IMG/VR virus record: IMGVR_UViG_3300044637_000101
Coordinates: 1 to 29,000 of that record
DNA: 29,000 bases
Reading direction: 5' to 3' (one strand)
Source: a virus
The translations under genes were made by a program, and so were the position numbers. Below, one piece after another: positions 1-17,061 of the stretch. Each line of letters opens with the position of its first letter. Position 1 is the first letter of the stretch. Under the pieces are notes generated by a model. The model was not told the DNA's origin. It saw only the letters and a list, made by a program, of their open reading frames with translations, and made no database searches.

Positions 1-101
1 TTAAACGAAAGAGTCCAGGATTTATTACAGAAATAGTCAGGATCTGTAACATCCACTACAGTTCTAATTGTTATTGGTATTAAATTATTTTGATCAGACA
101 T
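1..101 (-). CDS. Partial gene, unknown protein (5' end only)
   Basis: An ATG at 99-101 opens a frame that stays open to the left edge, giving 33 complete codons. The start reads MSDQNNLIPITIRTVVDVTD and continues through a stretch with one Cys. It lies 36 bases after the stop of the giant tail gene in the same orientation, so it is probably the next gene of the tail block. The leader is A/T-rich, with no clear Shine-Dalgarno, as for other genes here. The fragment is too short for a function; its position suggests a virion-associated protein. Confidence 0.6.
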   Translation of the reverse strand, partial: MSDQNNLIPITIRTVVDVTDPDYFCNKSWTLSF

Positions 102-137: not shown

Positions 138-3100
138 TTAAAAACAAATAAAATCAAAAGGAGGTGTACATGGACTATTACCACTAAGTCCAGTAAACTC
201 AACAGTAAAAGTTGGTCCAGAGGTTGGACCTACTACTTGATAAGCTGATCCAATACACACATATAAATCTGTTACAGGTGAAGTAGATCTCATTACAATA
301 GGATCACCGTATGTTTCACAAATTTCCATATCAAATGGTAATACATTATAATAATAATACGGTATAGTTGTTGTACTAGATGAAGTGGTAGATGTACTAG
401 TAGATGTGGAAGAGGTAGTGGATGTGGTTGGTGGACATTCATCATCTACACATTCTTCTTTTATTGTATATGTTCCACAAGATTCATTCACCGAAGGATC
501 AGAACCACACACTCTATATGTTTCACCTTTTACACTTGGTATACTATCAAATTGACGATTGCCTAAACAATCTACCCATGAAAATGGAACTCTACCTCCA
601 CAAGACTCATTAAGAACTTCAAACTCTATACATAGGCAAGGATTAGGAATCTTTGTTGTAGAAGATGTAGATGTAGAAATTGTACTTGATGTAGTGGTTG
701 TAGGACAATAGAAAGCAACCTCCTCTATATAGAACTCTTTTGTGGTTGCATCATATTTAACTCTTGGATCAATAGGAATGTAATCAAGTTTTGTTACAAT
801 CACCCTATCATACTTACTGTCATATACACCATGAAGTCCTATTCCGTTGAAATGATTGTCTGTATCAGCGTTAGGGAAATATCTTAAGATTTCAAATGCC
901 AGATGATCTGTAAAGAACCTATTAAGTCCTGAACCAAATCCTGAAAGGTCTGTAGCTTGATTACCTGCAAGAAGGAACACTTGTCCTCTCTTAGCATCAG
1001 CTGTAACTTGTCCTTGAGGAATCTTAAGAAGCATTTTGTTCTGACTTCCTACATATCCAAGATCTGTTTCTGCAAAATCTACAGGAGGAGCACTCTTAAA
1101 CAATGTATCATTACCAAGATAGGCAGCTTGAGGATTACTTGTTTGTACAGTCAATAAGGTGTTGTACAACAATGACTTATTCTCAAATCTAGCTAGAACA
1201 GCTCTGTTCTGAATACCATCTAGAGATAGAAGTTTACCATAGTTCTGAGGGAAGTCAAATGATGATATTGGACGGTAGATTAACCAACTGTTTACAACAT
1301 CATTTACAAAACTTTGTTGACGATCAGAATATATAGCTCTGAATGGAAAATACGTATTACAAAGCAATGGTTCCCAATCTACAGGTAGATGTGCGAAGAA
1401 GTTTTCTTTATTCTGTTTAGAATAAGTTACATTGTAAAAATATGTATTATCTTGAGCTATTGATACAAAACTCTCTTGAAGCCAATCATCAGGAATATCT
1501 GTACTCACGTGAGGCCAGAAGTCACCTTCTTTATTATTGAATGCTTGTCTAAGGTCTACGTTAACACTACTCTCACAATACAAATATGGAATACCATAAG
1601 CAAATAAGTAGAAGAAACCATCATAATATGTTTCTGTAGTTCCAGCATCTACCTGTCCTGGTGAATCTGGTGCTCCACTAAAGCAATCAAAGTTGTGAGC
1701 TTTGTATGAAATAATATTAGAGAATGTTTTTCCGTTATATGTGTAATCTTCTAGAATAGATCTTGATGAATGCCAATATCTAGGATAGGCCACATTACCA
1801 ATCTCATCATAGAATATGTCTGAATCATCAGGAGCATTTACACGGTTATCTATGAAGAAAGGAAGTTTTGTCTTAAATGCAAATCTAGAGATGAATGTAT
1901 CTCCACCAAATACTGTAGCTTGAGATGCTAGATTTGTACTAAAGTCTAATTGGAATCCTGTATCTATTGTATTATAAGAATACATCTGACCCCATTGATT
2001 TACAAACTCATTCTTCAAAGATGCATAGTATGCTACAGTAGTTATATCTTGTGGTTTGTTTGGAGTGCTACAAGCATTTCTACTAGATATTGTAAATCTA
2101 GAAACATCTTCTATTAATCTGTTACCTCCTGAAGGATTTAAACTAGGTGTATCACTTGGGAATGGAAGAGCAGTCACTTCAGTCTTTGTTTTCAAATAAA
2201 CAGAAGATTCTCTATTCCAGTTGTTAATATTAAAATCATCACCAACTGATTGTACACCAGGAATCAAATACTGAGATAGTTCAAGATTTCTTTGTTTAAC
2301 TCCAAGATTATTTGGTATAGATGCACAATAGTCATAACTAGCTATAGAGTTGAAAGATTGAGCATAGTTTCTTCTTGTAATACCATTTACATAAATTGTA
2401 AGATAGGCTTGATATGCTGTAAAAGCACCTGTAGCATCTGTTTCACCATCTACTGTTGCTACATTAAACGATGAATCTAATGCTTTCTGCTGAGCATTTT
2501 TACTTAAGAGTTTATAATTAGCGTTGTTTTTAACTTCAACAAAATGAGCATGACCAGCTCCATACATTACATTCTCAAGCTTAAGAATCCTTCCTAAGAA
2601 AGGTTGTCCAAATGATGTCTCAGGAGAATTAAATATTTGTCTGTATTTTATATTCTCATCAGTGAATGCATTAAGTGGTTTCTCAGGACCGCAGTCATCA
2701 TTTGTTACTGTTGTTATTAAACTAACGTCTCTCTGACATCTGCACCAATTAAAAGTTCCACTATCACAAGTGGATGTATCATCACCTACTGTTCCACCAA
2801 TTTCAACAATTATAGAACCTGGTTCGCTATAATCATAATTCTCAAAAGGATTTGTACCATCAATTGTTTGACAATCAAAACTACTTTCACCTTGAAGAAA
2901 AGCTGAACGATCTATAAAATCTGTATTGTTATTTGTAAAAGGATCTTTATAAAATATACGATATCCCTCACATCCATCACAACCTGTAGCTCTATACACT
3001 TGATAATTTGCAGGTCCTATTATAGCACCACCTGTAAGATGTTTAGGTCTTGTTAAAGAACATACAGTGATTGTTTCACCGCTCACCATATCTTTAGCAG

Positions 3101-5063
3101 CAGTTCTTCCTGTATTAGGATCTGTTATTTGGTAAGTTCCTGTTGTTGTACATCTTATCAACCATGATTTTGATTCAAGAGTGTATGCGTTATTACTTGT
3201 ATTTAAAAACTTATCTTCATTAAGATCATTGTATGGATAGTTAGGGAAGTAGTATTCTGTTTCTTCTCTTTTATATTTTCCAACATTTCTCAAGATACCT
3301 TTAGCAACAATAGACTTGTTTGTACCACGATCACCTCTCACTATCTTAAATCCAGCAATATCATTCTTTTGTACAGAAGTAAGACTTGATCCATTAATTA
3401 ATCCTTGTATTTGATCTATATCAATCTTCACTCCTATAGGAAATACAGACCTTTTTGATTTCATTTCCACTGAGTACTTTCCAGAAACAATGGTTGGTGT
3501 AGCACTCTCAAATATAGGACTCACTAATACATCTGGAAACTTATGATGTCTAATAGGTTGATTAGCAAGTTCTCCCCATACAAGTTCATTACAAGGATAT
3601 ACCTCTTCAGATTCCCAATAAGCAAATTCACCAAATTCATATGGCGTAGCACTTCCAATAGGATCTCCTGTAGCAAGTCCTGTTACAGAAGCTGTGTTGT
3701 ATATCTTCCAATATGGACTATATCCTATTCCTGTACCAGGATCTACATACTGAGGTTCACCTATAAAATCAGGATCGGTTGTAGGAACATCTGGCAGTCC
3801 TAACTCATTAAGGTTCTTAACTCTACCAGGAATATGAAAACCTTCTGTCTGCTTACCATTCTTCAAGAGAAACACGATCTCAAACGCATACACCTCATCT
3901 CTAAGATAGCCTCTTAGATTTGTAGCATTTAGTTCGTCTGAATAGTTTTCATTATCTGGAATCTTGTATGTCTGCCACTGAAGTTGAATTTGGTTAGCTA
4001 TTCTCTGATAGTTCACCTTATCTATGGATGTAAGGTTATCCCAGATTAGAATATCCTGAACAGCTGTAATGTCTTGAGCAATCTCGTAATACGGAAACTT
4101 CTCAAATATATCATTGATTGTAAGTCTAACTTGCTCTTGATTCTGCCCAGTGTAAGTTATTCTTTTCTCATTATCATCAATGAAATAAGTTCCTACAAGT
4201 TCTACAGATGTAATGTTATTAATAGTCTTTATTACAGCTAGATTGAAATATTTAAAGTATCCTGTAACATCTATATTATTAATACTTAATACAATAGACT
4301 TACCCACCTCATAATTAAAATTAGGAGTGGTAAGATTGATATCAGCAATAGGAGTGGGATTGGTGACAGAATAATAGGAAGTGTACCCATCTCCTACAGA
4401 GTCACAATATTGAATAGCAAATTGATAAGTACCAGCAATCAAAGAACCACCAGTGGTGACATCTTTAACTGCTAATTGTGGAATATCAAAGTCTGGTTGT
4501 ATGTTTAATTTATTACAATCAACAATAGGAATAGTCTCATTATCACAAACATCTGTTCCTGGTTTAACTGTATAAATACTTGTTATGTCATCTAGATTTA
4601 AAAATCTTCTTTGATTCAGTCCATCTGTCCAATATATCTCTGTAGTGCAATTAGTGATTTTGTGTACAGCTTTATGTATTGGATAGTATATGTTAAAGTT
4701 TAAACAATCAGCATTCACGTATGTACGATAGATGCAATCATTGTTTAACATAAATCCTATCTCAGATTTCTTAAGATCAGGATTAGCTAAGAAGAATACG
4801 TGCTTGTTTTGTTCTGCAATAAAATGTTCACCTATTACACGATATCCTGTTGGAAAATCTAAACAAAACTCATTACCAGGTTCGTTCTGATAGTTAACAG
4901 AGTTTGCATCAAAATTCTCAACAGAAGCATTCAATGCATAGCTAAGAGTACCTTTTGGTATTTGATTTACAGACTGGTCCATATTCATACCAGTTCTACC
5001 ATTATTATACTCAAACCTTACATTTCCAGCACCTAATGATTGTTCTTGTTCTTGTTCAGCCAT
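138..5063 (-). CDS. Giant tail protein (crAss-like muzzle/tail-tubular type) with C-terminal poly-Thr/Cys modules
   Basis: This 1641-residue protein is the largest in the window and follows the two ring-like proteins and the HU-like protein. That is where crAss-like phages carry their large distal tail protein, annotated as tail tubular/stabilisation protein or muzzle. It is beta-rich, and a segment near residues 205-240 (GGSLIAGTYQFAIQYCDSVG) resembles that family. The body ends near residue 1452. After it come a Thr/Ser linker (about 1455-1472), a Cys-rich module (about 1473-1543, with CxC and WxDCxG), a second Thr/Ser linker (about 1545-1567) and a terminal domain (about 1569-1641) with spaced cysteines. 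The same linker-module architecture occurs in the protein at 8672-9718. The start ATG at 5063 has an A-rich leader, and the protein begins with a Gln/Glu-rich stretch. The body probably forms the tail end and the C-terminal modules are probably surface exposed. The exact structural role is inferred from order. Confidence 0.75.
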   Translation of the reverse strand: MAEQEQEQSLGAGNVRFEYNNGRTGMNMDQSVNQIPKGTLSYALNASVENFDANSVNYQNEPGNEFCLDFPTGYRVIGEHFIAEQNKHVFFLANPDLKKSEIGFMLNNDCIYRTYVNADCLNFNIYYPIHKAVHKITNCTTEIYWTDGLNQRRFLNLDDITSIYTVKPGTDVCDNETIPIVDCNKLNIQPDFDIPQLAVKDVTTGGSLIAGTYQFAIQYCDSVGDGYTSYYSVTNPTPIADINLTTPNFNYEVGKSIVLSINNIDVTGYFKYFNLAVIKTINNITSVELVGTYFIDDNEKRITYTGQNQEQVRLTINDIFEKFPYYEIAQDITAVQDILIWDNLTSIDKVNYQRIANQIQLQWQTYKIPDNENYSDELNATNLRGYLRDEVYAFEIVFLLKNGKQTEGFHIPGRVKNLNELGLPDVPTTDPDFIGEPQYVDPGTGIGYSPYWKIYNTASVTGLATGDPIGSATPYEFGEFAYWESEEVYPCNELVWGELANQPIRHHKFPDVLVSPIFESATPTIVSGKYSVEMKSKRSVFPIGVKIDIDQIQGLINGSSLTSVQKNDIAGFKIVRGDRGTNKSIVAKGILRNVGKYKREETEYYFPNYPYNDLNEDKFLNTSNNAYTLESKSWLIRCTTTGTYQITDPNTGRTAAKDMVSGETITVCSLTRPKHLTGGAIIGPANYQVYRATGCDGCEGYRIFYKDPFTNNNTDFIDRSAFLQGESSFDCQTIDGTNPFENYDYSEPGSIIVEIGGTVGDDTSTCDSGTFNWCRCQRDVSLITTVTNDDCGPEKPLNAFTDENIKYRQIFNSPETSFGQPFLGRILKLENVMYGAGHAHFVEVKNNANYKLLSKNAQQKALDSSFNVATVDGETDATGAFTAYQAYLTIYVNGITRRNYAQSFNSIASYDYCASIPNNLGVKQRNLELSQYLIPGVQSVGDDFNINNWNRESSVYLKTKTEVTALPFPSDTPSLNPSGGNRLIEDVSRFTISSRNACSTPNKPQDITTVAYYASLKNEFVNQWGQMYSYNTIDTGFQLDFSTNLASQATVFGGDTFISRFAFKTKLPFFIDNRVNAPDDSDIFYDEIGNVAYPRYWHSSRSILEDYTYNGKTFSNIISYKAHNFDCFSGAPDSPGQVDAGTTETYYDGFFYLFAYGIPYLYCESSVNVDLRQAFNNKEGDFWPHVSTDIPDDWLQESFVSIAQDNTYFYNVTYSKQNKENFFAHLPVDWEPLLCNTYFPFRAIYSDRQQSFVNDVVNSWLIYRPISSFDFPQNYGKLLSLDGIQNRAVLARFENKSLLYNTLLTVQTSNPQAAYLGNDTLFKSAPPVDFAETDLGYVGSQNKMLLKIPQGQVTADAKRGQVFLLAGNQATDLSGFGSGLNRFFTDHLAFEILRYFPNADTDNHFNGIGLHGVYDSKYDRVIVTKLDYIPIDPRVKYDATTKEFYIEEVAFYCPTTTTSSTISTSTSSTTKIPNPCLCIEFEVLNESCGGRVPFSWVDCLGNRQFDSIPSVKGETYRVCGSDPSVNESCGTYTIKEECVDDECPPTTSTTSSTSTSTSTTSSSTTTIPYYYYNVLPFDMEICETYGDPIVMRSTSPVTDLYVCIGSAYQVVGPTSGPTFTVEFTGLSGNSPCTPPFDFICF
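362..431. repeat. Low-complexity DNA encoding a poly-Thr/Ser linker in the giant tail gene
   Basis: This tract encodes about residues 1545-1567 of the giant tail protein, nearly all Thr and Ser. It separates the Cys module from the terminal domain. A sister tract at 648-701 encodes the first linker. Codon pattern and DNA composition resemble the tract at 8915-8995. Confidence 0.65.
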
Positions 5064-5074
5064 TTATCTTTATA

Positions 5075-6052
5075 TTAAGTGTTACGTCTTAACCCATATC
5101 TATTAGTTCTATTGGGTAGTTCGTACATGTTAAATCTATTGAGATCGTTCTTTATTCTTCTTTGTTTAGCCCAAGCATCTTGTTTCTTAATCTCTATATC
5201 AGCCATGATGAATGCTTCTTCTGACATTTGCTTATAGTAGACAAGCTTCTGTTGTATCTGTTGGAAGGTCTCATCATTTATCTGATTCGAGAGAGTTTCA
5301 AACACTTTATACTTAATGAAAGCTTCTACATATTCTCTAATACGATAGTTGTCAGGAATCATTTGATTACCGTTGTTATCATACTCTGTAGCGTAGAATA
5401 TTAAATGAACCACTCCATTTCTAAAGTTGGTTACAAACTTATTGTCTCTAACATCAAATGAATCTACTGAAGATGCTCCTGGAGTAAAACTTCCTATAGG
5501 ACTTCCAGCATGTCCATACATTTCCCAGTTATCATTATATCCTACAGCACATTTAGCTTGTGCAGATATGTTTCCTGGTTTAAGAAGATATTCATCTCTG
5601 TAAGATCTAGCTATAGAGTTATTTGTTTTATACACAGCTTGAATAAGTTCAGGCATACATGTACCATCACATCCTGGATTTTGACATCCTGGATTATTGC
5701 AAGGTGTACCCCCTATTGTTAGAGGAGAAACTTGTATAGTGGATTGTGTAGCAGCTTGAGAGTAGAATGAGTTAGCTGATTGGTATGGGTATTGTGGAAT
5801 CTCTGAGCACATCCAGGCTTCCCTTACAGCAAAGAAGTTATCTGGGAGCCTTGCTTGAAAATCCTCTATATAGAGAATCTGTTCAGAGATGACATATGAT
5901 GATCTTCCTAGTTTTCTAAGACACTTATCAGTGTACGTAGGAAACATAAGATCATCTACAGCTCCTGTATCAAAGTAGCTCTTTAGCTCTTCCTTTATTG
6001 TGGAATACACTATTTCAGGAGACGTAAAATTGTATTTGTAGTAGTATGACAT
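5075..6052 (-). CDS. Head-tail ring/adaptor-like structural protein
   Basis: This 325-residue protein lies directly upstream of the giant tail gene (11-base gap) and 6 bases after the HU-like gene. In crAss-like phages this slot holds a conserved ring or tail-stabilisation protein of the portal-tail junction. The N-terminal half is mixed alpha/beta (PEIVYSTIKEELKSYF). A central loop near residues 110-135 holds a cysteine cluster (CNNPGCQNPGCDGTC), which could bind metal or form disulfides. The C-terminal third is helical and ends in a basic, Asn/Arg-rich tail. There is no enzymatic motif. The assignment rests on position and overall character, so the exact ring identity is uncertain. Confidence 0.6.
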   Translation of the reverse strand: MSYYYKYNFTSPEIVYSTIKEELKSYFDTGAVDDLMFPTYTDKCLRKLGRSSYVISEQILYIEDFQARLPDNFFAVREAWMCSEIPQYPYQSANSFYSQAATQSTIQVSPLTIGGTPCNNPGCQNPGCDGTCMPELIQAVYKTNNSIARSYRDEYLLKPGNISAQAKCAVGYNDNWEMYGHAGSPIGSFTPGASSVDSFDVRDNKFVTNFRNGVVHLIFYATEYDNNGNQMIPDNYRIREYVEAFIKYKVFETLSNQINDETFQQIQQKLVYYKQMSEEAFIMADIEIKKQDAWAKQRRIKNDLNRFNMYELPNRTNRYGLRRNT

Positions 6053-6058
6053 TTTATA

Positions 6059-6532
6059 TTATTTTTTCCACTCTCTGTAGATGTGTTGATATTTATTATC
6101 AGTTTTGATGTAGTGAGACAAAAGTCTTGATGTTGTACGAGATGGTTTAAAATACCAAAGATCTGTAGTCTTAAGTCTTGCTGTATCTTTGAACCACATC
6201 CATCCAAAAAAGTAACCCTCAGTGTGGTAATTAAAATTGTATATCCTTTTCCCCTTTTCTTTTGTCTTTTGCCAATCTATTGGTAGGTTGACAAACTCAT
6301 CATTAAGTCCTTTCTTCTTTCTACGCTTCTTCTTGTTAATAGAAAACTCACCAAAGCCAAAAGGCATTTTAGCTTTCTCACCAGTTTCTAATATATAGTT
6401 CTTGAACGATTCGTTGAAAGAATAGAGAATATTTCTCCATTCATCAAATGTAAGTTTTATTGATGGGTGCTTCTTACAGAAGTTGTTGTAGTTTTCTTTG
6501 CTTGCAGATCTCCAATCTATTTTTACTCTCAT
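6059..6532 (-). CDS. HU/IHF-like DNA-binding protein of the tail block
   Basis: This 157-residue basic protein has an HU/IHF-like signature: a helical N-terminal half followed by a Gly-Phe-Gly-x-Phe turn at residues 59-63 (KMPFGFGEFSINKKKR). A strongly basic arm follows at 67-74. The C-terminal part is rich in Trp, Tyr and Lys and is not standard HU. crAss-like phages carry an IHF-like gene in this position among the neck and tail genes. The start codon overlaps the stop of the upstream ring-like gene as TAATG, indicating translational coupling. It may organise DNA near the portal or have become a structural part. A second HU-like protein lies at 27941-28288. Confidence 0.6.
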   Translation of the reverse strand: MRVKIDWRSASKENYNNFCKKHPSIKLTFDEWRNILYSFNESFKNYILETGEKAKMPFGFGEFSINKKKRRKKKGLNDEFVNLPIDWQKTKEKGKRIYNFNYHTEGYFFGWMWFKDTARLKTTDLWYFKPSRTTSRLLSHYIKTDNKYQHIYREWKK

Positions 6533-7260
6533 TAGCTTCCAGCTGGGGCATTTGGTGCTTGTCCATCTATTCCGTTATCTGTTAAATCAGTTTTTAATGT
6601 GAAGTATGTAGAAAGTAGTTTCTGTGAAGTGAGTTCTAACACCTGCTTCTCTAGATATCCAGGTAGAGCGAATTCCTTATCAAGAGGGTTTTTACACCAA
6701 TCTTCATCAGTAGGTTCATTACTTCCACACCCACACTCAGGATACATAATCTCATTAGGAACATCTTGTTCAAAGAATGCTGATATTCTAATTGCTTGTA
6801 ATAATGGATTGCTAACATATAGATAACCATTCATTATCCAATAGTATTCTTCCTTCTTGATGATAGGAAGTTTAAGTAGATTTACATATCTATTTATAGT
6901 TATTTCTTTTAGTTTCTTACCAGAACCACTCATTGCATTTATTGAGTAAACACCTTGTATGAGATATTGGTAATTTCCTTCACCTATGCGTGGAAGTTTA
7001 AATCTACTTCTAGCCACTGTGCAAGGATCTACATATTCACAACATTCAGAAATAGGAACTTCTACCATTTCCAAACAAGGAATGGTAGTGAATAATGTAT
7101 TAGTAGCCCAGAGTTTTCTTAGATTAGTTTCTCTCTTTACTAATAATAAAGTGTTGTTTCTAATTTCAGATGCAATTACACGATCTGTAATCAATTCATC
7201 TGTAGAAAGCAACTTATGCATTCCACGAATATCTGAAACTAATTTTCTTAATGTTGCCAT
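6532..7260 (-). CDS. Neck/ring-like structural protein
   Basis: This 242-residue protein lies between the metallophosphoesterase (5-base gap) and the HU-like gene (TAATG overlap). It begins with a helical segment rich in Leu, Arg and Lys (MATLRKLVSDIRGMHKLLST). A mixed beta region follows, with Cys pairs near residues 74-80 (ECCEYVDPC) and 175-188 (ECGCGSN...WC). The C-terminus ends in a helix and an Ala/Pro/Gly tail. No catalytic motif is visible. crAss-like genomes carry a conserved structural protein of similar size just before the IHF-like gene, and I place it there. Alternatives are another head completion or tail hub protein. Confidence 0.5.
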   Translation of the reverse strand: MATLRKLVSDIRGMHKLLSTDELITDRVIASEIRNNTLLLVKRETNLRKLWATNTLFTTIPCLEMVEVPISECCEYVDPCTVARSRFKLPRIGEGNYQYLIQGVYSINAMSGSGKKLKEITINRYVNLLKLPIIKKEEYYWIMNGYLYVSNPLLQAIRISAFFEQDVPNEIMYPECGCGSNEPTDEDWCKNPLDKEFALPGYLEKQVLELTSQKLLSTYFTLKTDLTDNGIDGQAPNAPAGS

Positions 7261-7265
7261 GTTGT

Positions 7266-8498
7266 TTAAATTCTTGATTCAAATTCTCCTATCTTTCCGT
7301 GCTTAGGATGATATATGAGCACAAGACCAGCTCTTATATTGTTAACATAGTTATTATCTAAATGCCATCTATCAGTTCCTGAAAGAGAAGGCATCTGTTG
7401 TATTCTTACACCTTTCACCTCTTTAGCCATGTAGTGATGTTTATCACCTGTGTGGATTTCTCTATATTTAGCAGCACCAAAATCAAAACTATCCTTACCT
7501 GTAGCAAACAACAAAGGAAGCTCATCTATCTTACAATTACCATGATGATAACCAATGAATGTACTTCCTAACACTACAGATTTTGTTACTGAATGTTCTC
7601 TCTGGAAGCTAACATCAGTGTAAACACTAAAGAACACCTCAAGAGCATGTGCTAGGTAGAAAGACTTTGTTCTATCATGATTACCTTGAACTAGGATAAC
7701 TTCTACGTGCTCACTCATAGCTCTCAGGTAGTTGATGGTTGTAACTAGAAGATCAAACCCTGCTTCATACTCATTATCATATCCTGTAAGTACATCTTGA
7801 GGTGTACCTGCTGTAGTTTGATTTTGGTAGTTATCTGTATGGAAGAAGTCATTTGATATAGGGAACACAATTGTGTTTATACTAAATGAGTTTCTCACCT
7901 TCTCTACAAGATTATAAACAGTTGTAAGATATTGCACCTTCTTATCTTCCATAGTCTCTCCTTCTAGAGTCTTTTTAGCTAAATGGAAGTCAGCTATGGA
8001 AACCTCAATATCCACTTCTTCATACCCCCTCTCATCTTCACCTTTATCTACAAGTAACACTTTTGGTTCGTAGTTCTCTAGAAACTTAGCAAAGTCTTCT
8101 GGTGTGTAATCCTTTGGTTGTCTGAGAGTTGCAAACACTGAACTTGTAAACTTACCATTAGGCTTTTGTTTAGTCCAGTAGTTAGAAATCTTATACTTGT
8201 CTAGGTTTATTTTATGTAGTTTTGCTAGCTCAATATCATCCTTAGGCTCAAAACTTGTTTCAACTGTAGATTCTAATGTTCCTTTTTCATTATTCACCTT
8301 TACAACCATCTCCTCTAGAACATCAATGTAATGTGCAACCTCAGCATCATCCCTCACTCTTTCTTTGTTTCTTAGCTCTTTTAATAACTCATCAACCACT
8401 TCTTCTGACACACCTAGCTTTTCAGCATAGACTTTTTTACTTTTCTTCCAGCCAAGCATCTGCTCTAACTGGGAAAGCAAGCTTTCATTTACTGCCAT
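7266..8498 (-). CDS. Calcineurin-like metallophosphoesterase with N-terminal helix-turn-helix
   Basis: This 410-residue protein shows metallophosphoesterase signatures in order: D170-x-H172 (SIADFHLAKK), N216-D217-x-x-H220 (ISNDFFH, a variant of GDxxH), GNHD at 272-275 (VQGNHDR), paired His 318-319 (GYHHGN), and a His motif at 349-355 (HTGDKHH, a variant of GHxH). The dimetal site therefore looks complete. The N-terminus has a helix-turn-helix-like region near 20-42 (KVYAEKLGVSEEVVDELLKE), which suggests nucleic-acid binding. The substrate is unknown; a nuclease or phosphatase acting on DNA or RNA ends is plausible. It is the only evident enzyme among the tail genes. It is preceded by a strong terminator and its own promoter, so it leads a separate transcription unit. 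The leader carries AACCAATAAA close to the ATG. Confidence 0.85.
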   Translation of the reverse strand: MAVNESLLSQLEQMLGWKKSKKVYAEKLGVSEEVVDELLKELRNKERVRDDAEVAHYIDVLEEMVVKVNNEKGTLESTVETSFEPKDDIELAKLHKINLDKYKISNYWTKQKPNGKFTSSVFATLRQPKDYTPEDFAKFLENYEPKVLLVDKGEDERGYEEVDIEVSIADFHLAKKTLEGETMEDKKVQYLTTVYNLVEKVRNSFSINTIVFPISNDFFHTDNYQNQTTAGTPQDVLTGYDNEYEAGFDLLVTTINYLRAMSEHVEVILVQGNHDRTKSFYLAHALEVFFSVYTDVSFQREHSVTKSVVLGSTFIGYHHGNCKIDELPLLFATGKDSFDFGAAKYREIHTGDKHHYMAKEVKGVRIQQMPSLSGTDRWHLDNNYVNNIRAGLVLIYHPKHGKIGEFESRI

Positions 8499-8524
8499 AT
8501 ATAGTTTTTATTGGTTAAATTAGT

Positions 8525-8556
8525 ATAAAGGTATGAATATATTTTATATATACCAA
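8525..8556 (-). promoter_or_regulatory. Bacteroidota-type promoter of the tail block
   Basis: Reading the minus strand, TTTG (8556-8553), a 20-base spacer and TACCTTTA (8532-8525) match the Bacteroidota housekeeping consensus TTTG-N19/20-TAnnTTTG except for the last base. It lies between the terminator at 8598-8635 and the metallophosphoesterase start at 8498. It would give a leader of roughly 23 bases. A 6-base inverted repeat, TTAACT/AGTTAA (8562-8588), sits just upstream of the -33 element; in AT-rich DNA this may be chance. Confidence 0.55.
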
Positions 8557-8597
8557 ATCTTTTTAACTAATTTAATTATATAAGTTAATCAAATTCG

Positions 8598-8635
8598 TTA
8601 TAAAATAAAAACTCCCAGGGTAGAAACCCTAGGAG
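8598..8635 (-). terminator. Intrinsic terminator after the fibre block
   Basis: On the minus strand a hairpin, CTCCTAGGGT-TTCT-ACCCTGGGAG (8635-8612), has a 10-pair stem with one U-G wobble. It is followed directly by TTTTTATTTTA, a classic intrinsic terminator. It lies 36 bases after the stop of the modular fibre gene at 8672. A smaller stem, CCTGT/ACAGG (8640-8661), precedes it. Confidence 0.85.
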
Positions 8636-8671
8636 CTACCCTGTAAAACCAACAAAACAGGATTTTTTATA

Positions 8672-9718
8672 TTATAATGAACAACTTGATACGGAATCAA
8701 TTGTTCCAAGACTATCTATTACAGTGAAGCAATCTGAAAAATCAGAATAATATCCATTAGGAGCAGGAATTGTTAGTCCTGCATCTGTATATAACACTGA
8801 AGATATTCCTAACACCATATCTGCACTATAGTATGTTGTAGTCACTAATCCTGCACAAGCACCTGAACAACTGATGTCATCATATAATAATTCAAATAAA
8901 TATGATGGAATACCTGTTGTAGTGCTAGTTGTTGTTGTACTGCTCGAACTAGTAGTGGTAGTGGTACTCGAACTACTAGTAGTTGTAGTGGTTACAGGAC
9001 AATCTCCATCCACTGTACAAGGATCAATTCCACCAATTATGGTTATTGAACCATCTCCAGTTGAATAACTGATTGTATCTAGTTGAGCACAAAAAGTAAT
9101 ATCTATATTAGGACCTGTCCAAGTTTGTTTTACTCCCTCACAATCAAACCATTCAACTACATAAAATCCTACACTTGTTACATTATAACAATAGCATTCT
9201 GGAGGTAATGTAGTTGTAGTGGTTGTTGTTGGAGAACAATCTTCATTAACTGTACATAGATTTCCTGAATTTGATATAATTAAAGAACCATCTCCTCCAA
9301 ATTCAGCAATGCTACCAAGCTGAGCACATATATTTATATCAAAGTTAGAACCTATAAATGAATGATCAATTCCTATACAATCATTCCATGTAATTGTATA
9401 TTCTCCAACTGCAGTGAGATTAAAGCAATAACAATCTGTTGGAAAAGGTGGAGTAGGAGTTTCGGTTGTTGATGTACTTGTTGTTGTAGGAATAGGACCA
9501 ACTGTAATAGGAATGTCTATGTAGTTTTTACAAACACCGTCTGACATCACTCTAACTACAGTTGTTCCATCAGGAGCAGAATATGAGTTATATCCTAGTT
9601 CCAAATTTAATTTTGGAACTCCCACTTCAAATGCTGATATAAACCCATCAACATCTGAATATAAATTAAAAGGGCCTGTATCACTCCCTGCTACTGTTAA
9701 AACTATGTATATTGTCAT
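8672..9718 (-). CDS. Modular virion adhesin-like protein with Cys modules and poly-Thr linkers
   Basis: This 348-residue protein is a chain of small domains joined by Thr/Ser linkers. Residues 1-72 form an N-terminal beta domain (GPFNLYSDVDGFISAFEVG) of a kind I recognise from Bacteroidota phages. After a linker at 75-90 comes Cys module A (95-161), a linker (163-171), Cys module B (175-240), a long linker (242-268) and a C-terminal domain (271-348) with TTYYS, VLYTDAGLT and NGYYS motifs. Modules A and B align throughout: CYCxN, a WxDC or WFDC motif, CAQL, GDGS, CTV and DC. They are clearly a duplication. The same linker-module design ends the giant tail protein. No catalytic residues are seen. 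A surface fibre or receptor-binding role is inferred. The gene ends the fibre block before a strong terminator, and its leader holds ACCAAATAAA two bases before the ATG. Confidence 0.7.
   Translation of the reverse strand: MTIYIVLTVAGSDTGPFNLYSDVDGFISAFEVGVPKLNLELGYNSYSAPDGTTVVRVMSDGVCKNYIDIPITVGPIPTTTSTSTTETPTPPFPTDCYCFNLTAVGEYTITWNDCIGIDHSFIGSNFDINICAQLGSIAEFGGDGSLIISNSGNLCTVNEDCSPTTTTTTTLPPECYCYNVTSVGFYVVEWFDCEGVKQTWTGPNIDITFCAQLDTISYSTGDGSITIIGGIDPCTVDGDCPVTTTTTSSSSTTTTTSSSSTTTTSTTTGIPSYLFELLYDDISCSGACAGLVTTTYYSADMVLGISSVLYTDAGLTIPAPNGYYSDFSDCFTVIDSLGTIDSVSSCSL
8915..8995. repeat. Low-complexity DNA encoding a poly-Thr/Ser linker
   Basis: These bases encode residues 242-268 of the modular protein, almost entirely Thr and Ser. 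The plus-strand DNA is built from GTAGTTG/GTGGTAG-like units and contains CTCGAACTA twice. Similar tracts lie at 362-431 and 648-701 inside the giant tail gene. They could promote slippage or recombination between genes. Confidence 0.7.
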
Positions 9719-11529: not shown

Positions 11530-13011
11530 TTAAACTGGATTATTTCTTAAATCCCAAACAATTCCAGCAGCACTTGTTTGTTGACTTCTACTTATATACA
11601 CTGAGAATGGAACACTTGACCAATATCCATCTGGTGATGTAACATTTTGTGTAACTGGAGTGGTCCATATACTTGAAGGATCTAAATCAACTCCAATAGC
11701 TGCAACCGTTGGGTTTGCAGAAGTGTTCCAACTTTTCTTCCTTGTATACAAACTATAATGAACAAACCATATGTATTCACTTGTTGAAGCAAATGTAATA
11801 CTTAGTGTACCATCAGCAGAAGCTAAAACTTTATTTGCAGTGCCTGCAGCTATTGCAGCAGCAATTGATGCTGGTGTAGGAACACTTGAAGATTTACCCC
11901 AGAAGTATGGATAGATACCTGTTATTGTTTGTACACTACTCTCAAATCCTGTAGATGCAGCTTGTGGACCAACTTGAGGACTGTTCCTAACTTGAGGAGT
12001 TCTTGTATCTAAATTACCAAGACTGTCTTTAATAGCAACACCAGCATTGTAATTACCATCAACTTTATATTGTATAGATGATGATGTACCACTTGATGGG
12101 GCAGGCATAGCAAATATGTCTGAATATGCAGATGTTGCAGTGTATATAAAGTTTGGATTGTTTAGATCAGCAAATCCAAATTGAGTGGGTAATACAGGTC
12201 CAGCAGATGGTGTAATCGCAGTTATATTTGAACCAAGTTGATTGAAAAGTCCAGTGTTGATCTTTTTGAATATACGGAATTGTGTAAATGCACCAGCTGC
12301 GTTTTTAGTTGCAGATGGAGTTAATAGAACTGTTATTGATTTACCAATCTCTTGAAGTCCACTTGGTACTGTTCCAAATCCAATTGTAGGATTTGCATAT
12401 GTAGGAAGTTGTAAAGGGAACAATATCAAATCCAAAACTTCCACCAGTGTTTTTGTTTTCCAAAAACTAGCAAGAGCAGGTGCAGCACCTCCTACTTGAA
12501 CAGATGTAACATCATCTGGAACAAGTGTATTGTATATTGTACTTAGTTCATTTGGAGCAGAAAATTCAAGACCTACATTATCATCAAGTGTAATGTTATT
12601 AGAGATACTTGACGGTAATGCTCTTCTAACTACACCAAGACTTGTCTCTGTAAGGATGTAGTCTGGGTTTGAATCTACAACAAGACCAGTTATAGATAGT
12701 GTATTTGTTGGATTTGTTCCAATTGATGTATTTTGTACTAATGGTCCTCCAAGCTGAATGTTGTTAAGAGTTTTTAAAAGACCGTTATTAGCTGTTATCG
12801 AAGATCCAGGAGAAGTACAAATAGCATCATCAATTTTTTGTAAAGCTGTACAAAGTGTGTCGCAAGCTTCTATACCTGTACATATAAGATTTGGTCCAGA
12901 GTATACAACACCATCACAGCTAATTCTACTGTTAGGATTGCAAGGATCATCTGCACATCCAGAGTATATGGTTTGTGTATTATAGCAAGGAGTTCCAGGA
13001 GAACAAGACAT
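11530..13011 (-). CDS. Fibre-associated virion protein with Cys-rich N-terminus
   Basis: This 493-residue protein opens with a cysteine-rich segment (ten Cys in the first 65 residues, e.g. MSCSPGTPCY and ADDPC). It is followed at about 74-97 by ANNGLLKTLNNIQLGGPL, the fibre motif shared with the adjacent 590-residue protein. The remainder is rich in Thr, Ser, Ala and Pro and looks like a series of beta domains. No enzymatic motif is seen. It lies between the collar protein (19-base gap) and the duplicated fibre (24-base gap). It is likely part of the same fibre or adhesin assembly; the specific role is unknown. Confidence 0.55.
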   Translation of the reverse strand: MSCSPGTPCYNTQTIYSGCADDPCNPNSRISCDGVVYSGPNLICTGIEACDTLCTALQKIDDAICTSPGSSITANNGLLKTLNNIQLGGPLVQNTSIGTNPTNTLSITGLVVDSNPDYILTETSLGVVRRALPSSISNNITLDDNVGLEFSAPNELSTIYNTLVPDDVTSVQVGGAAPALASFWKTKTLVEVLDLILFPLQLPTYANPTIGFGTVPSGLQEIGKSITVLLTPSATKNAAGAFTQFRIFKKINTGLFNQLGSNITAITPSAGPVLPTQFGFADLNNPNFIYTATSAYSDIFAMPAPSSGTSSSIQYKVDGNYNAGVAIKDSLGNLDTRTPQVRNSPQVGPQAASTGFESSVQTITGIYPYFWGKSSSVPTPASIAAAIAAGTANKVLASADGTLSITFASTSEYIWFVHYSLYTRKKSWNTSANPTVAAIGVDLDPSSIWTTPVTQNVTSPDGYWSSVPFSVYISRSQQTSAAGIVWDLRNNPV

Positions 13012-15149: not shown

Positions 15150-16304
15150 TTAAGGAATATTTGTGCTTGTAGTTGTAGTGCTAGGCCAAATTGTAGTAAT
15201 TGTACTAGTAGTAGTGATACAAGTGTTATCGCTACTTACAGTTCCTAATGCATCTTCCAAAATAGTCTCAAGAGTTGCTGCAGCAGCTTGTGGAACAGCA
15301 ATGATTACCATTGAATCTTCTTTGATGTAGTCACCCCAGCTATAAGCTGATTTGTCATACTCATTGAATTTGATGTAGTAGGTATCATAAGTTGTACCAT
15401 CACTCACCCAAGATTCAAAGTTTTCGTTGTAACCAACCATTCTGTAAAGATGCTTCAAGTAACCAGCTTGGTAGCTGTAGAAGTTCTTTTCCAATTGCTT
15501 AATCTCATCAGATGTTCCATCAGGATAAGAAGAACGCTGAGTGATTACAGCATTAGCAACAATGTTACAATTGTCAGCAACAATAAAATCAGCAGTAGTA
15601 GCAGGACCAGAATAAACGAAAGTACGGAAGTACATTCTGTCATATTCGTAAGGGAATGCAGCCACATCACAAGGTTGACCATATCTAGTCAAAGCCTTAC
15701 CAGAGATACGCAAGATTGCATTTGCATCATTACCAACTCTTTGGAATTGATAGAATGTGTTGAAGCTAATGTTGTCTGGGTTGATACCAGGACCTTGTTG
15801 TTGAAGCTTCAAGATGAAAGCATCAATCAAAGCAGGAACATCAACAGTGTCACAAGGATCACCACCACAATCACAACAAGGTGCTTGTACAGTTACTGAA
15901 CGTGTGAAACCATTGAAATACAAAGTGTCAATGTAAGAAGAGTGTGCACGTAATGTTAAAGTTACGATATCACCACATTTTACATTCCAACCACTTACAT
16001 CAGTCACCTGAGTAGCAGCTGTAGGACAACCTGTAACTTTGTACCACTCAGTTACGTTTGACTTACAAGAACCTTCAATACATCCAGCAATTTTGTCCGA
16101 ACGCTTAGAACCTTGCAAATAAGTGTTTGTTCTACCTTGTGCAATGTAGAAATAAGGGAAATTCCCAGGAGTGTTTGTAGCCACATAGTTGTTGGAAAAA
16201 ATACCAACTTGACCAGCAGCTAAATTCTGCGTAGATCCAGAGCTAGGAAACGTAGTTTGTCCTACTGGCACTACGAAGAGCGTAGTTAATGAAAAATCTG
16301 CCAT
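15150..16304 (-). CDS. Probable abundant virion protein (capsid auxiliary or head-fibre candidate) with Thr-rich tail
   Basis: This 384-residue protein begins MADFSLTTLFVVPVGQTTFP. The N-terminal region is beta-rich with several Cys; a cluster at 143-151 reads CCDCGGDPC. The middle and C-terminal part has many Tyr and Phe. It ends in a Thr/Ser-rich tail (about 362-384), like the linkers in two other virion proteins but without a following domain. Arg codons are often CGT or CGC, as in MCP and unlike the AGA-rich fibre genes, suggesting high expression. The MCP and this gene also share an AAACAAAATGGC-like start context. The hairpin just downstream fits a boundary after a highly expressed gene. 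Its role as auxiliary capsid, head fibre or tail component is not settled by sequence alone. Confidence 0.6.
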   Translation of the reverse strand: MADFSLTTLFVVPVGQTTFPSSGSTQNLAAGQVGIFSNNYVATNTPGNFPYFYIAQGRTNTYLQGSKRSDKIAGCIEGSCKSNVTEWYKVTGCPTAATQVTDVSGWNVKCGDIVTLTLRAHSSYIDTLYFNGFTRSVTVQAPCCDCGGDPCDTVDVPALIDAFILKLQQQGPGINPDNISFNTFYQFQRVGNDANAILRISGKALTRYGQPCDVAAFPYEYDRMYFRTFVYSGPATTADFIVADNCNIVANAVITQRSSYPDGTSDEIKQLEKNFYSYQAGYLKHLYRMVGYNENFESWVSDGTTYDTYYIKFNEYDKSAYSWGDYIKEDSMVIIAVPQAAAATLETILEDALGTVSSDNTCITTTSTITTIWPSTTTTSTNIP

Positions 16305-16329: not shown

Positions 16330-17061
16330 TTATTCGTTTGTCTGTATTCTAAGTTGAGCACTTTGTACTGCAGATTGGTTCTCTGTGTACATAGCTAAGT
16401 TTTGAACTGTGAGATCTAGGAGCTCATCTTCAAGATAGGTTTCTAATTCACAATCTTGATCTATAGAGGGTGTACCGTCAAACTTGATATATCCTTCTTT
16501 ATCTATGTATTTAGGATATCTCATGTACGATACATAGATCTTTGTTGGTGTGAAAGTACCATCTGTAAAGATTGATATTTCATCAGAGGATAAGAAGTTG
16601 AAAGTCTCTTGATACTCAAACGATGGTTTGTAATGTTCATTGTTTAGAATAAACTGTAGATCACCATGTTTAGCAAGATCTCTATTAATCCAAATCTTTC
16701 TATCTTTACATCTTCCTTTATCAGCTAATACATAACTATCTAAGTAGAACATGTATTTAGGAGTTAGGATATCTGTCTTAGCAGACCATTGATTTAATTG
16801 TGGATTCTTGACTTTAAGTTTCAAAGGTTGATTGTTATACGTAACAACCAGACTTTGAAGATCTTCATATCGCTTTTTGAAAGCATCTAGTCCAAGTCCA
16901 GATACTGTGCTTTGACCATCAACCTTTTGCTTTATAAGCTTAATCTGAGCTTCATTCAAAGCTAAAATCTTATCTTCTAACTGAATCTGTTGATGATCAT
17001 TAGTAGATAGTTTATTTAGTCTTTGGTCAATCTTATATAATAAACTATCTACTGGTATCAT
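16330..17061 (-). CDS. Portal-proximal ring/adaptor-like protein
   Basis: This 243-residue protein starts with a long helical, coiled-coil-like segment (about 1-50, Gln/Lys/Leu-rich). A mixed alpha/beta middle follows, then a C-terminal helix rich in Glu/Leu (YLEDELLDLTVQNLAMYTE). Its ATG overlaps the stop of the 322-residue gene as ATGA. crAss-like phages have a conserved adaptor or ring protein of this type shortly after MCP, and the SYMRYPKYIDKEGYIKFDGT segment is consistent with it. It probably joins portal to tail. No enzyme motif is seen. Ring number is not assigned. Confidence 0.55.
   Translation of the reverse strand: MIPVDSLLYKIDQRLNKLSTNDHQQIQLEDKILALNEAQIKLIKQKVDGQSTVSGLGLDAFKKRYEDLQSLVVTYNNQPLKLKVKNPQLNQWSAKTDILTPKYMFYLDSYVLADKGRCKDRKIWINRDLAKHGDLQFILNNEHYKPSFEYQETFNFLSSDEISIFTDGTFTPTKIYVSYMRYPKYIDKEGYIKFDGTPSIDQDCELETYLEDELLDLTVQNLAMYTENQSAVQSAQLRIQTNE

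Follow-up and report, generated by a model that had tools for sequence, protein, structure and literature searches.

The structural gene block

The window, meaning the whole 29,000-nucleotide stretch analysed (positions 1 to 29,000 of IMG/VR virus record IMGVR_UViG_3300044637_000101), is a block of structural genes from a freshwater crAss-like phage that is related to crAssphage of the gut. Its main genes all lie on the minus strand. Read in that direction, they encode TerL, portal, MCP, p322, a ring 3/4-like protein, the 15150-16304 protein, and p185, followed by three fibre-type genes, the 8672-9718 protein, an exonuclease, ring 2, a protein at the IHF position, ring 1, and finally the muzzle (Table 1). 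Homologues of the muzzle, ring 1, ring 2, MCP, portal, and TerL in their typical order place the phage within the Crassvirales. MCP, portal, and TerL were assigned by PHROGs; the block also gives Pfam matches to PF25731 (1.2e-36), PF24228 (3e-10), and PF25702 (8e-18), and its gene order matches that of crAss001. The record is a fragment; within it, no reverse transcriptase is found among the ORFs scanned, and no template/variable repeat of the DGR type is found among the 20 repeat families listed.

Table 1. Features of the window, with positions, strand, and basis of assignment
Feature	Position	Strand	Basis or remark
Second ORF start (MSDQNNLIPITIRTVVDVTDPDYFCNKSWTLSF...), split-off conserved C-terminal muzzle piece; leaves the window	1..101	-	98.3% nt identity to L083
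Muzzle protein (tail tip), 1641 aa, C-terminal linker-module-linker-domain	138..5063	-	PF25731 crAss_MUZ 1.2e-36; phrog_37948 6e-102
Muzzle terminal display domain	141..359	-	Unrelated domain instead in L082
Muzzle Thr/Ser linker 2	360..428	-	Homology to 87%-identical L082 stops within, at 384
Muzzle Cys module, aa 1474-1542	438..644	-	HMM E 1.3e-6; hhalign P 1.6e-6; AF2
Muzzle Thr/Ser linker 1, aa 1455-1473	645..701	-	
Intrinsic-terminator hairpin, 12 pairs	8610..8637	-	Directly after the RNA hairpin
RNA hairpin, invariant 12-nt loop UUUGUUGGUUUU	8638..8663	-	Adjoins the display gene, not part of it
Anchor-module protein, 348 aa	8672..9718	-	ORF and homologue comparison
Terminal domain of anchor-module protein	8675..8905	-	Family also on muzzles (4) and other anchor proteins
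Thr/Ser linker 3 of anchor-module protein	8903..8992	-	Left end of tract differing from 99%-identical L003
Cys module d2, aa 173-241	8996..9202	-	Duplicate of d1; module-family HMM
Cys module d1, aa 94-162	9233..9439	-	Duplicate of d2; module-family HMM
First and second Thr/Ser linkers of anchor-module protein	9446-9487, 9209-9235	-	
Conserved anchor domain, aa 1-71, predicted Ig/FnIII-like sandwich	9506..9718	-	At least 80 relatives; pLDDT 95-98
Third scaffold: N-terminal adaptor region (YSGPNLxCTGIxxCD..) of 11530-13011	12811..13011	-	Relatives carry T-linked Cys modules (L017, L188, L044)
Conserved protein at crassvirus capsid auxiliary position, bare Thr/Ser tail (15153-15215)	15150..16304	-	Position by synteny only
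Ring 3/4-like protein	16330-17061	-	PF25710 E 0.0034

The muzzle protein and its split genes

An earlier note on this DNA had described a giant tail protein ending in a linker-module-linker-domain design. That design is confirmed, and the protein is the crAss muzzle, with PF25731 as its sole Pfam match (126.7 bits against a cut-off of 27). In phi-crAss001 the muzzle is a hexameric tail tip that is thought to touch the cell surface and that varies by insertions (PMC10172136).

Among relatives, the muzzle body is conserved at 75-94% identity to about residue 1449 and is highly variable beyond it. The usual layout runs from the body to a conserved piece, VVYLTDxxYFCNKSWTLSF..., and then to linkers and modules; between the body and the conserved VVYLTDxx piece lies an insertion site. 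This site holds an in-frame Cys module in L088 and L092, and Thr linkers alone in L128, L135, L139, L161, and L093. In 8 of 82 muzzles, those of the window and seven relatives (L082 being presumed, as its contig ends), the gene is split. The chain ends after the insertion, and wherever the sequence continues, the conserved piece is encoded by a separate gene. The display insertion has thus divided the muzzle gene. The first 33 codons of the split-off gene are within the window (101-1, minus strand).

Many muzzle tails (e.g. L085, L112, and L138) also contain short repeats of the form C-x-[LIF]-x-G-x-A, a small unit distinct from the Cys module. In two otherwise identical sequences (L083:3864 versus L082:3864-3953), an 89-bp deletion shifts the frame and truncates the muzzle module.

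The anchor-module protein

The 8672-9718 protein begins with a domain of about 71 residues whose pattern, GPFxLYSDxDG...GY...PDGTTIIRV...CTNYID, is kept across relatives. In most of the at least 80 relatives, similarity to the protein is confined to this anchor domain, and downstream of it come a linker and then a changing set of domains. Two Cys modules carried on Thr/Ser linkers, as reported in the earlier note, are present at or near the positions it gave. They are clear duplicates, with a local alignment score of 181 compared with 27+-5 for shuffles.

AlphaFold2 predicts the anchor domain with pLDDT 95-98 and each Cys module with about 85, while the linkers fall below 50. The anchor-domain model aligns with FnIII-like chains at a Z of about 5 (rmsd 2.5-3.2 over 64-71 residues). 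The protein has zero Pfam matches at E<=1, and so none to a BACON or an Ig-like domain, and a Foldseek search of the PDB with the whole-protein model gave nothing meaningful. In a viral structure library, the top matches come from Virus NIOZ-UU157; one of these proteins is a stand-alone anchor domain of 77 aa (TM 0.89 by target). The anchor domain is present in only 1 of about 85,000 bacterial and archaeal genomes. That sole copy (L363) is on a 13-kb scaffold of a Tissierellales MAG, which is probably a misbinned viral contig.

A module family common to three scaffolds

Compared pairwise with the other two Cys modules, the muzzle module is weakly similar (3/1000 and 46/1000 shuffles). An HMM of 30 other modules, built without the muzzle module itself, matches it at 25.6 bits (E 1.3e-6) versus 8.7 bits for the best of 2000 shuffles, and profile-profile alignment with hhalign agrees (P 1.6e-6). 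Thus, by sequence the muzzle module belongs remotely to the d1/d2 family, a relationship that becomes convincing only through the family profile. The terminal domains of the muzzle and the 8672-9718 protein show no resemblance (1000/1000 shuffles score equally well).

The AF2 model of the muzzle module has five strands and a pLDDT of 81.5. All three Cys modules are predicted, in good-confidence models described one by one, to be compact all-beta units, so the models do not indicate the unrelated folds that the earlier note had named as the outcome that would count against a common module. Structural resemblances of the Cys module to Ena1C, LecB, and TRAP, all with Z under 4, were set aside, and the structure searches gave no confident match that would name a ligand.

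Across the relatives there are 305 distinct linker-attached modules. The family found in the window comprises 51 distinct modules in all fetched loci: 23 on muzzles, 20 on anchor proteins, and 8 on adaptor proteins of the 11530-13011 type. Nine of the 37 multi-member families are common to at least two scaffolds, among them the family to which the window's own terminal domain belongs (anchor 4, muzzle 4). Tails with T/S linkers number 91/94 for muzzles, 166/189 for anchors, and 19/29 for adaptors. The proposal that one module is common to unrelated structural genes therefore holds for the muzzle and the anchor protein and extends to the adaptor, which the earlier note had missed; it fails for its third protein, that at 15150-16304.

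Bare threonine tails and linker composition

The Thr/Ser tail of the 15150-16304 protein is real, but the protein is not a recipient of the module system. Its tail is a conserved, module-free terminus: among about 100 relatives none carries a module, and the typical ending (...CITTTSTTTTVWPTTTTTSTLIP-end) is kept. The relatives contribute 79 distinct tails of this type, nearly all Thr-rich and most ending in -IP. The protein has no match in the PDB, and an alignment that would have identified it by sequence as the capsid auxiliary protein was not significant (hhalign E 0.58).

On anchors and muzzles, too, some tails stop in bare Thr (33 of 189 and 28 of 94, respectively), so the string may serve a purpose even where it bears no module. 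A frameshift explanation, in which a module would lie in another frame downstream, was rejected, since the downstream frames contain the hairpin element and the exonuclease start.

Linker Thr codons are mixed (ACA 0.46, ACT 0.34, ACC 0.18). TRF finds just two short, weak arrays, both in linker 2, and no long tandem-repeat array beneath the linkers. An origin of the linkers by microsatellite slippage is thus unsupported.

An RNA hairpin beside the display gene

Between the display gene and the exonuclease gene lies an RNA hairpin followed by a terminator. The hairpin stem covaries strongly, with two-sided changes in 8/8 pairs (61 such cells versus 16.2 in shuffles, 0/500). The pattern occurs in 120 viral DNA stretches, directly before the exonuclease in 111; in the other nine there is no detectable exonuclease downstream, and several of these are near a contig end. 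The hairpin has no match in Rfam at gathering scores, and it is absent from the structural regions of crAss001, phi17:2, and csAssE-Sib. A similar hairpin with a 7-bp stem and the loop TTTGTTGGTTG occupies the corresponding position in the distant Leptolyngbya phage Lbo-JY46 (muzzle identity only 35%). The idea that the hairpin marks a cassette boundary of the display system was discarded, because it also precedes the exonuclease where no anchor gene is detected upstream. The element is positional and probably predates the display system; it may be a new regulatory RNA that marks an operon boundary.

After the terminator and before the exonuclease gene, a promoter-like stretch of the Bacteroidota type (TTTGG...TACCTTTA; 8540-8505, minus strand) was noted by eye, which hints at a Bacteroidota host. 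The closest isolated relative by muzzle is Lbo-JY46 (L362, PP438436), recorded from a cyanobacterium; a Bacteroidota-like promoter in the genome of Lbo-JY46 suggests that the phage may really infect a bacterium present in the cyanobacterial culture.

Traces of exchange

One trace of movement between scaffolds comes from two phages, L087 and L099, whose muzzle bodies share about 88% DNA identity. L099 has an anchor gene with a linker and module directly downstream of its muzzle. In L087 the muzzle linker continues straight into the L099-type anchor-gene module (96.6% aa identity; DNA 97.2% over 781 bp). The junction is within the linker, and about 640 bp are absent; the last domain native to the muzzle, its stop codon, and the anchor domain have all been lost.

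Other comparisons reveal replacement within a scaffold. Over 8.5 kb, L003 matches the window at 99-100% identity save for one main tract: 44 of 104 differences fall within the 473 bp that run from linker 3 through the terminal domain to the terminator, with 60 in the other 8004 bp (clustering p 2e-28, for an interval picked after inspection of the data). A smaller cluster of differences between the same two phages, at 12087-11974 (minus strand) in the third scaffold gene, 11530-13011, is probably another replaced piece. Compared with L002, the anchor domain, d1, and d2 are 100% identical and the terminal domain of the anchor-module protein 83% (aa). In the muzzle, homology to L082 ends within linker 2, and that to L083 resumes at 127.

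When close muzzle pairs are compared, the 24 first divergences comprise 14 at linkers and 5 at the insertion site, with the remaining 5 elsewhere. Since linkers make up about half of muzzle tails, this excess is modest; a looser count of all breakpoints places 28% at linkers versus 19% expected. Together, the comparisons show, at the level of sequence, a module repertoire that is shared and has moved between scaffolds, with joins in or near linkers and with splitting of genes. The mobility suspected in the earlier note is thus borne out by the L087 fusion and by the L003 and L082 comparisons; the adhesion implied by its term 'mobile adhesin' is a putative property.

A probable modular display layer

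We favour, at a probability of about 0.7, a reading in which this environmental crAss-like clade has a modular display layer, with linkers as exchange points and domains that putatively bind surfaces. Small folded domains of about 60-120 aa, many of them Cys-containing and all-beta, would be tethered by flexible poly-Thr/Ser strings to three or more virion scaffolds: the muzzle's C-terminal part, the small anchor-domain protein, and the 'YSGPNL' adaptor protein. Gene position suggests that the latter two are virion components. The strings would project the domains from the particle, and the domains may bind glycans or proteins of cell surfaces or of the environment. Exchange at linkers would alter specificity while leaving the scaffold undisturbed, and variety would be selected. 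In the simplest account, ordinary phage recombination makes many joins, and those within Thr/Ser strings are tolerated. Linkers are likely to act as joints because in-frame joins there are structurally tolerated and hence kept by selection. A dedicated recombination enzyme is neither seen nor needed in this account. A bolder and unlikely extension is that the strings are kept as universal in-frame joints besides being spacers, making the several scaffolds one exchange system. If so, any module could move to the tail tip or the particle surface, and display could be diversified without a reverse transcriptase.

The modules could instead be a general decoration, serving stability, spacing, or sticking to particles or mucus-like matter rather than binding host receptors, with their variety reflecting drift in a dispensable layer. 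The many module-free ends on anchors and muzzles fit this idea, as does the conserved bare tail at the capsid position, where the string itself may matter. However, the recent exchange of a terminal domain between otherwise 99%-identical phages, the very broad repertoire, and its sharing with the tail tip suggest that variety is selected, and we regard decoration as rather doubtful. Nor do the linkers look like the O-glycosylated, mucin-like stalks that the earlier note envisaged, although their composition and long Thr/Ser runs with Pro would suit such a role. D-[S/T]-[AILVMT], the Bacteroidota O-glycosylation site, occurs only 3 times among >8500 linker Thr and not once in the linkers of the window. 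Bacteroidota O-glycosylation acts outside the cytoplasm, away from the site of phage protein synthesis, and zero glycosyltransferases are seen in the window, itself a fragment. Glycosylated stalks are accordingly very improbable, and glycosylation by the known Bacteroidota system finds no support in these counts, with which glycosylation of another kind would be compatible.

It is just as hard to sustain the idea that Cys modules entered each gene separately from bacterial sources and that the linkers are convergent. The window's muzzle module is only remotely similar to d1 and d2, as independent entry would predict. Against this stand the 96.6% identical module in the muzzle and anchor genes of sister phages, the families common to scaffolds at 35-67% identity, and the near absence from bacterial and archaeal genomes of the anchor domain, the one domain scanned there. 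The display-layer reading, in which one repertoire serves several scaffolds, makes it testable how crAss-like phages of lakes and rivers alter their adhesion targets, and yields a parts list of ready-made domain-linker units. The joints, the insertion site, and the recent swaps can all be read in the sequence.

Relation to known systems

No earlier description of a poly-Thr linker display system was found in the open-access literature searched, and related shuffling behaviour has been described for BACON domains (PMC6949934) and Ig-like adhesins (PMC13370021). The BACON repeats of crAss-like phages were gained partly through horizontal transfer of single domains and have a suspected binding role (PMC6949934). 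Like the modules described here, tandem BACON repeats are small beta domains added to tail-associated proteins; unlike them, the present modules are on Thr linkers, are common to three scaffolds, and have no Pfam BACON match. The Ig-like phage adhesins (PMC13370021) are likewise modular, variable surface domains, and for them binding has been demonstrated. The domains here are different, come from environmental phages, and are known from sequence; an Ig/FnIII-like look is confined to the anchor domain. Like the crassvirus head-fibre proteins gp21 and gp29 (PMC10172136), the anchor and adaptor proteins seem to combine a short N-terminal docking part with outer domains; gp21 and gp29 are oligomeric fibres, and the likeness is one of layout. 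The top Foldseek match of the muzzle module is the Bacillus endospore appendage protein Ena1C, a small beta subunit of a disulfide-linked pilus, a likeness that is within noise (E 0.26, Z 3.8).

A close parallel is the phi-crAss001 muzzle gp44 (PMC10172136, PF25731), which shares with the window's muzzle its protein family, gene order, tail-tip position, and reported length variation by insertion. Thr display linkers are found neither in the structural genes checked in crAss001, csAssE-Sib, and phi17:2 nor in the muzzle tail of Lbo-JY46. Unlike gp44, muzzles of the window's clade have T-linked display modules inserted or appended, sometimes splitting the gene. Shuffling of phage fibre domains was already known; here, one pool of domains serves unrelated scaffolds, including the conserved gatekeeper of the tail tip.
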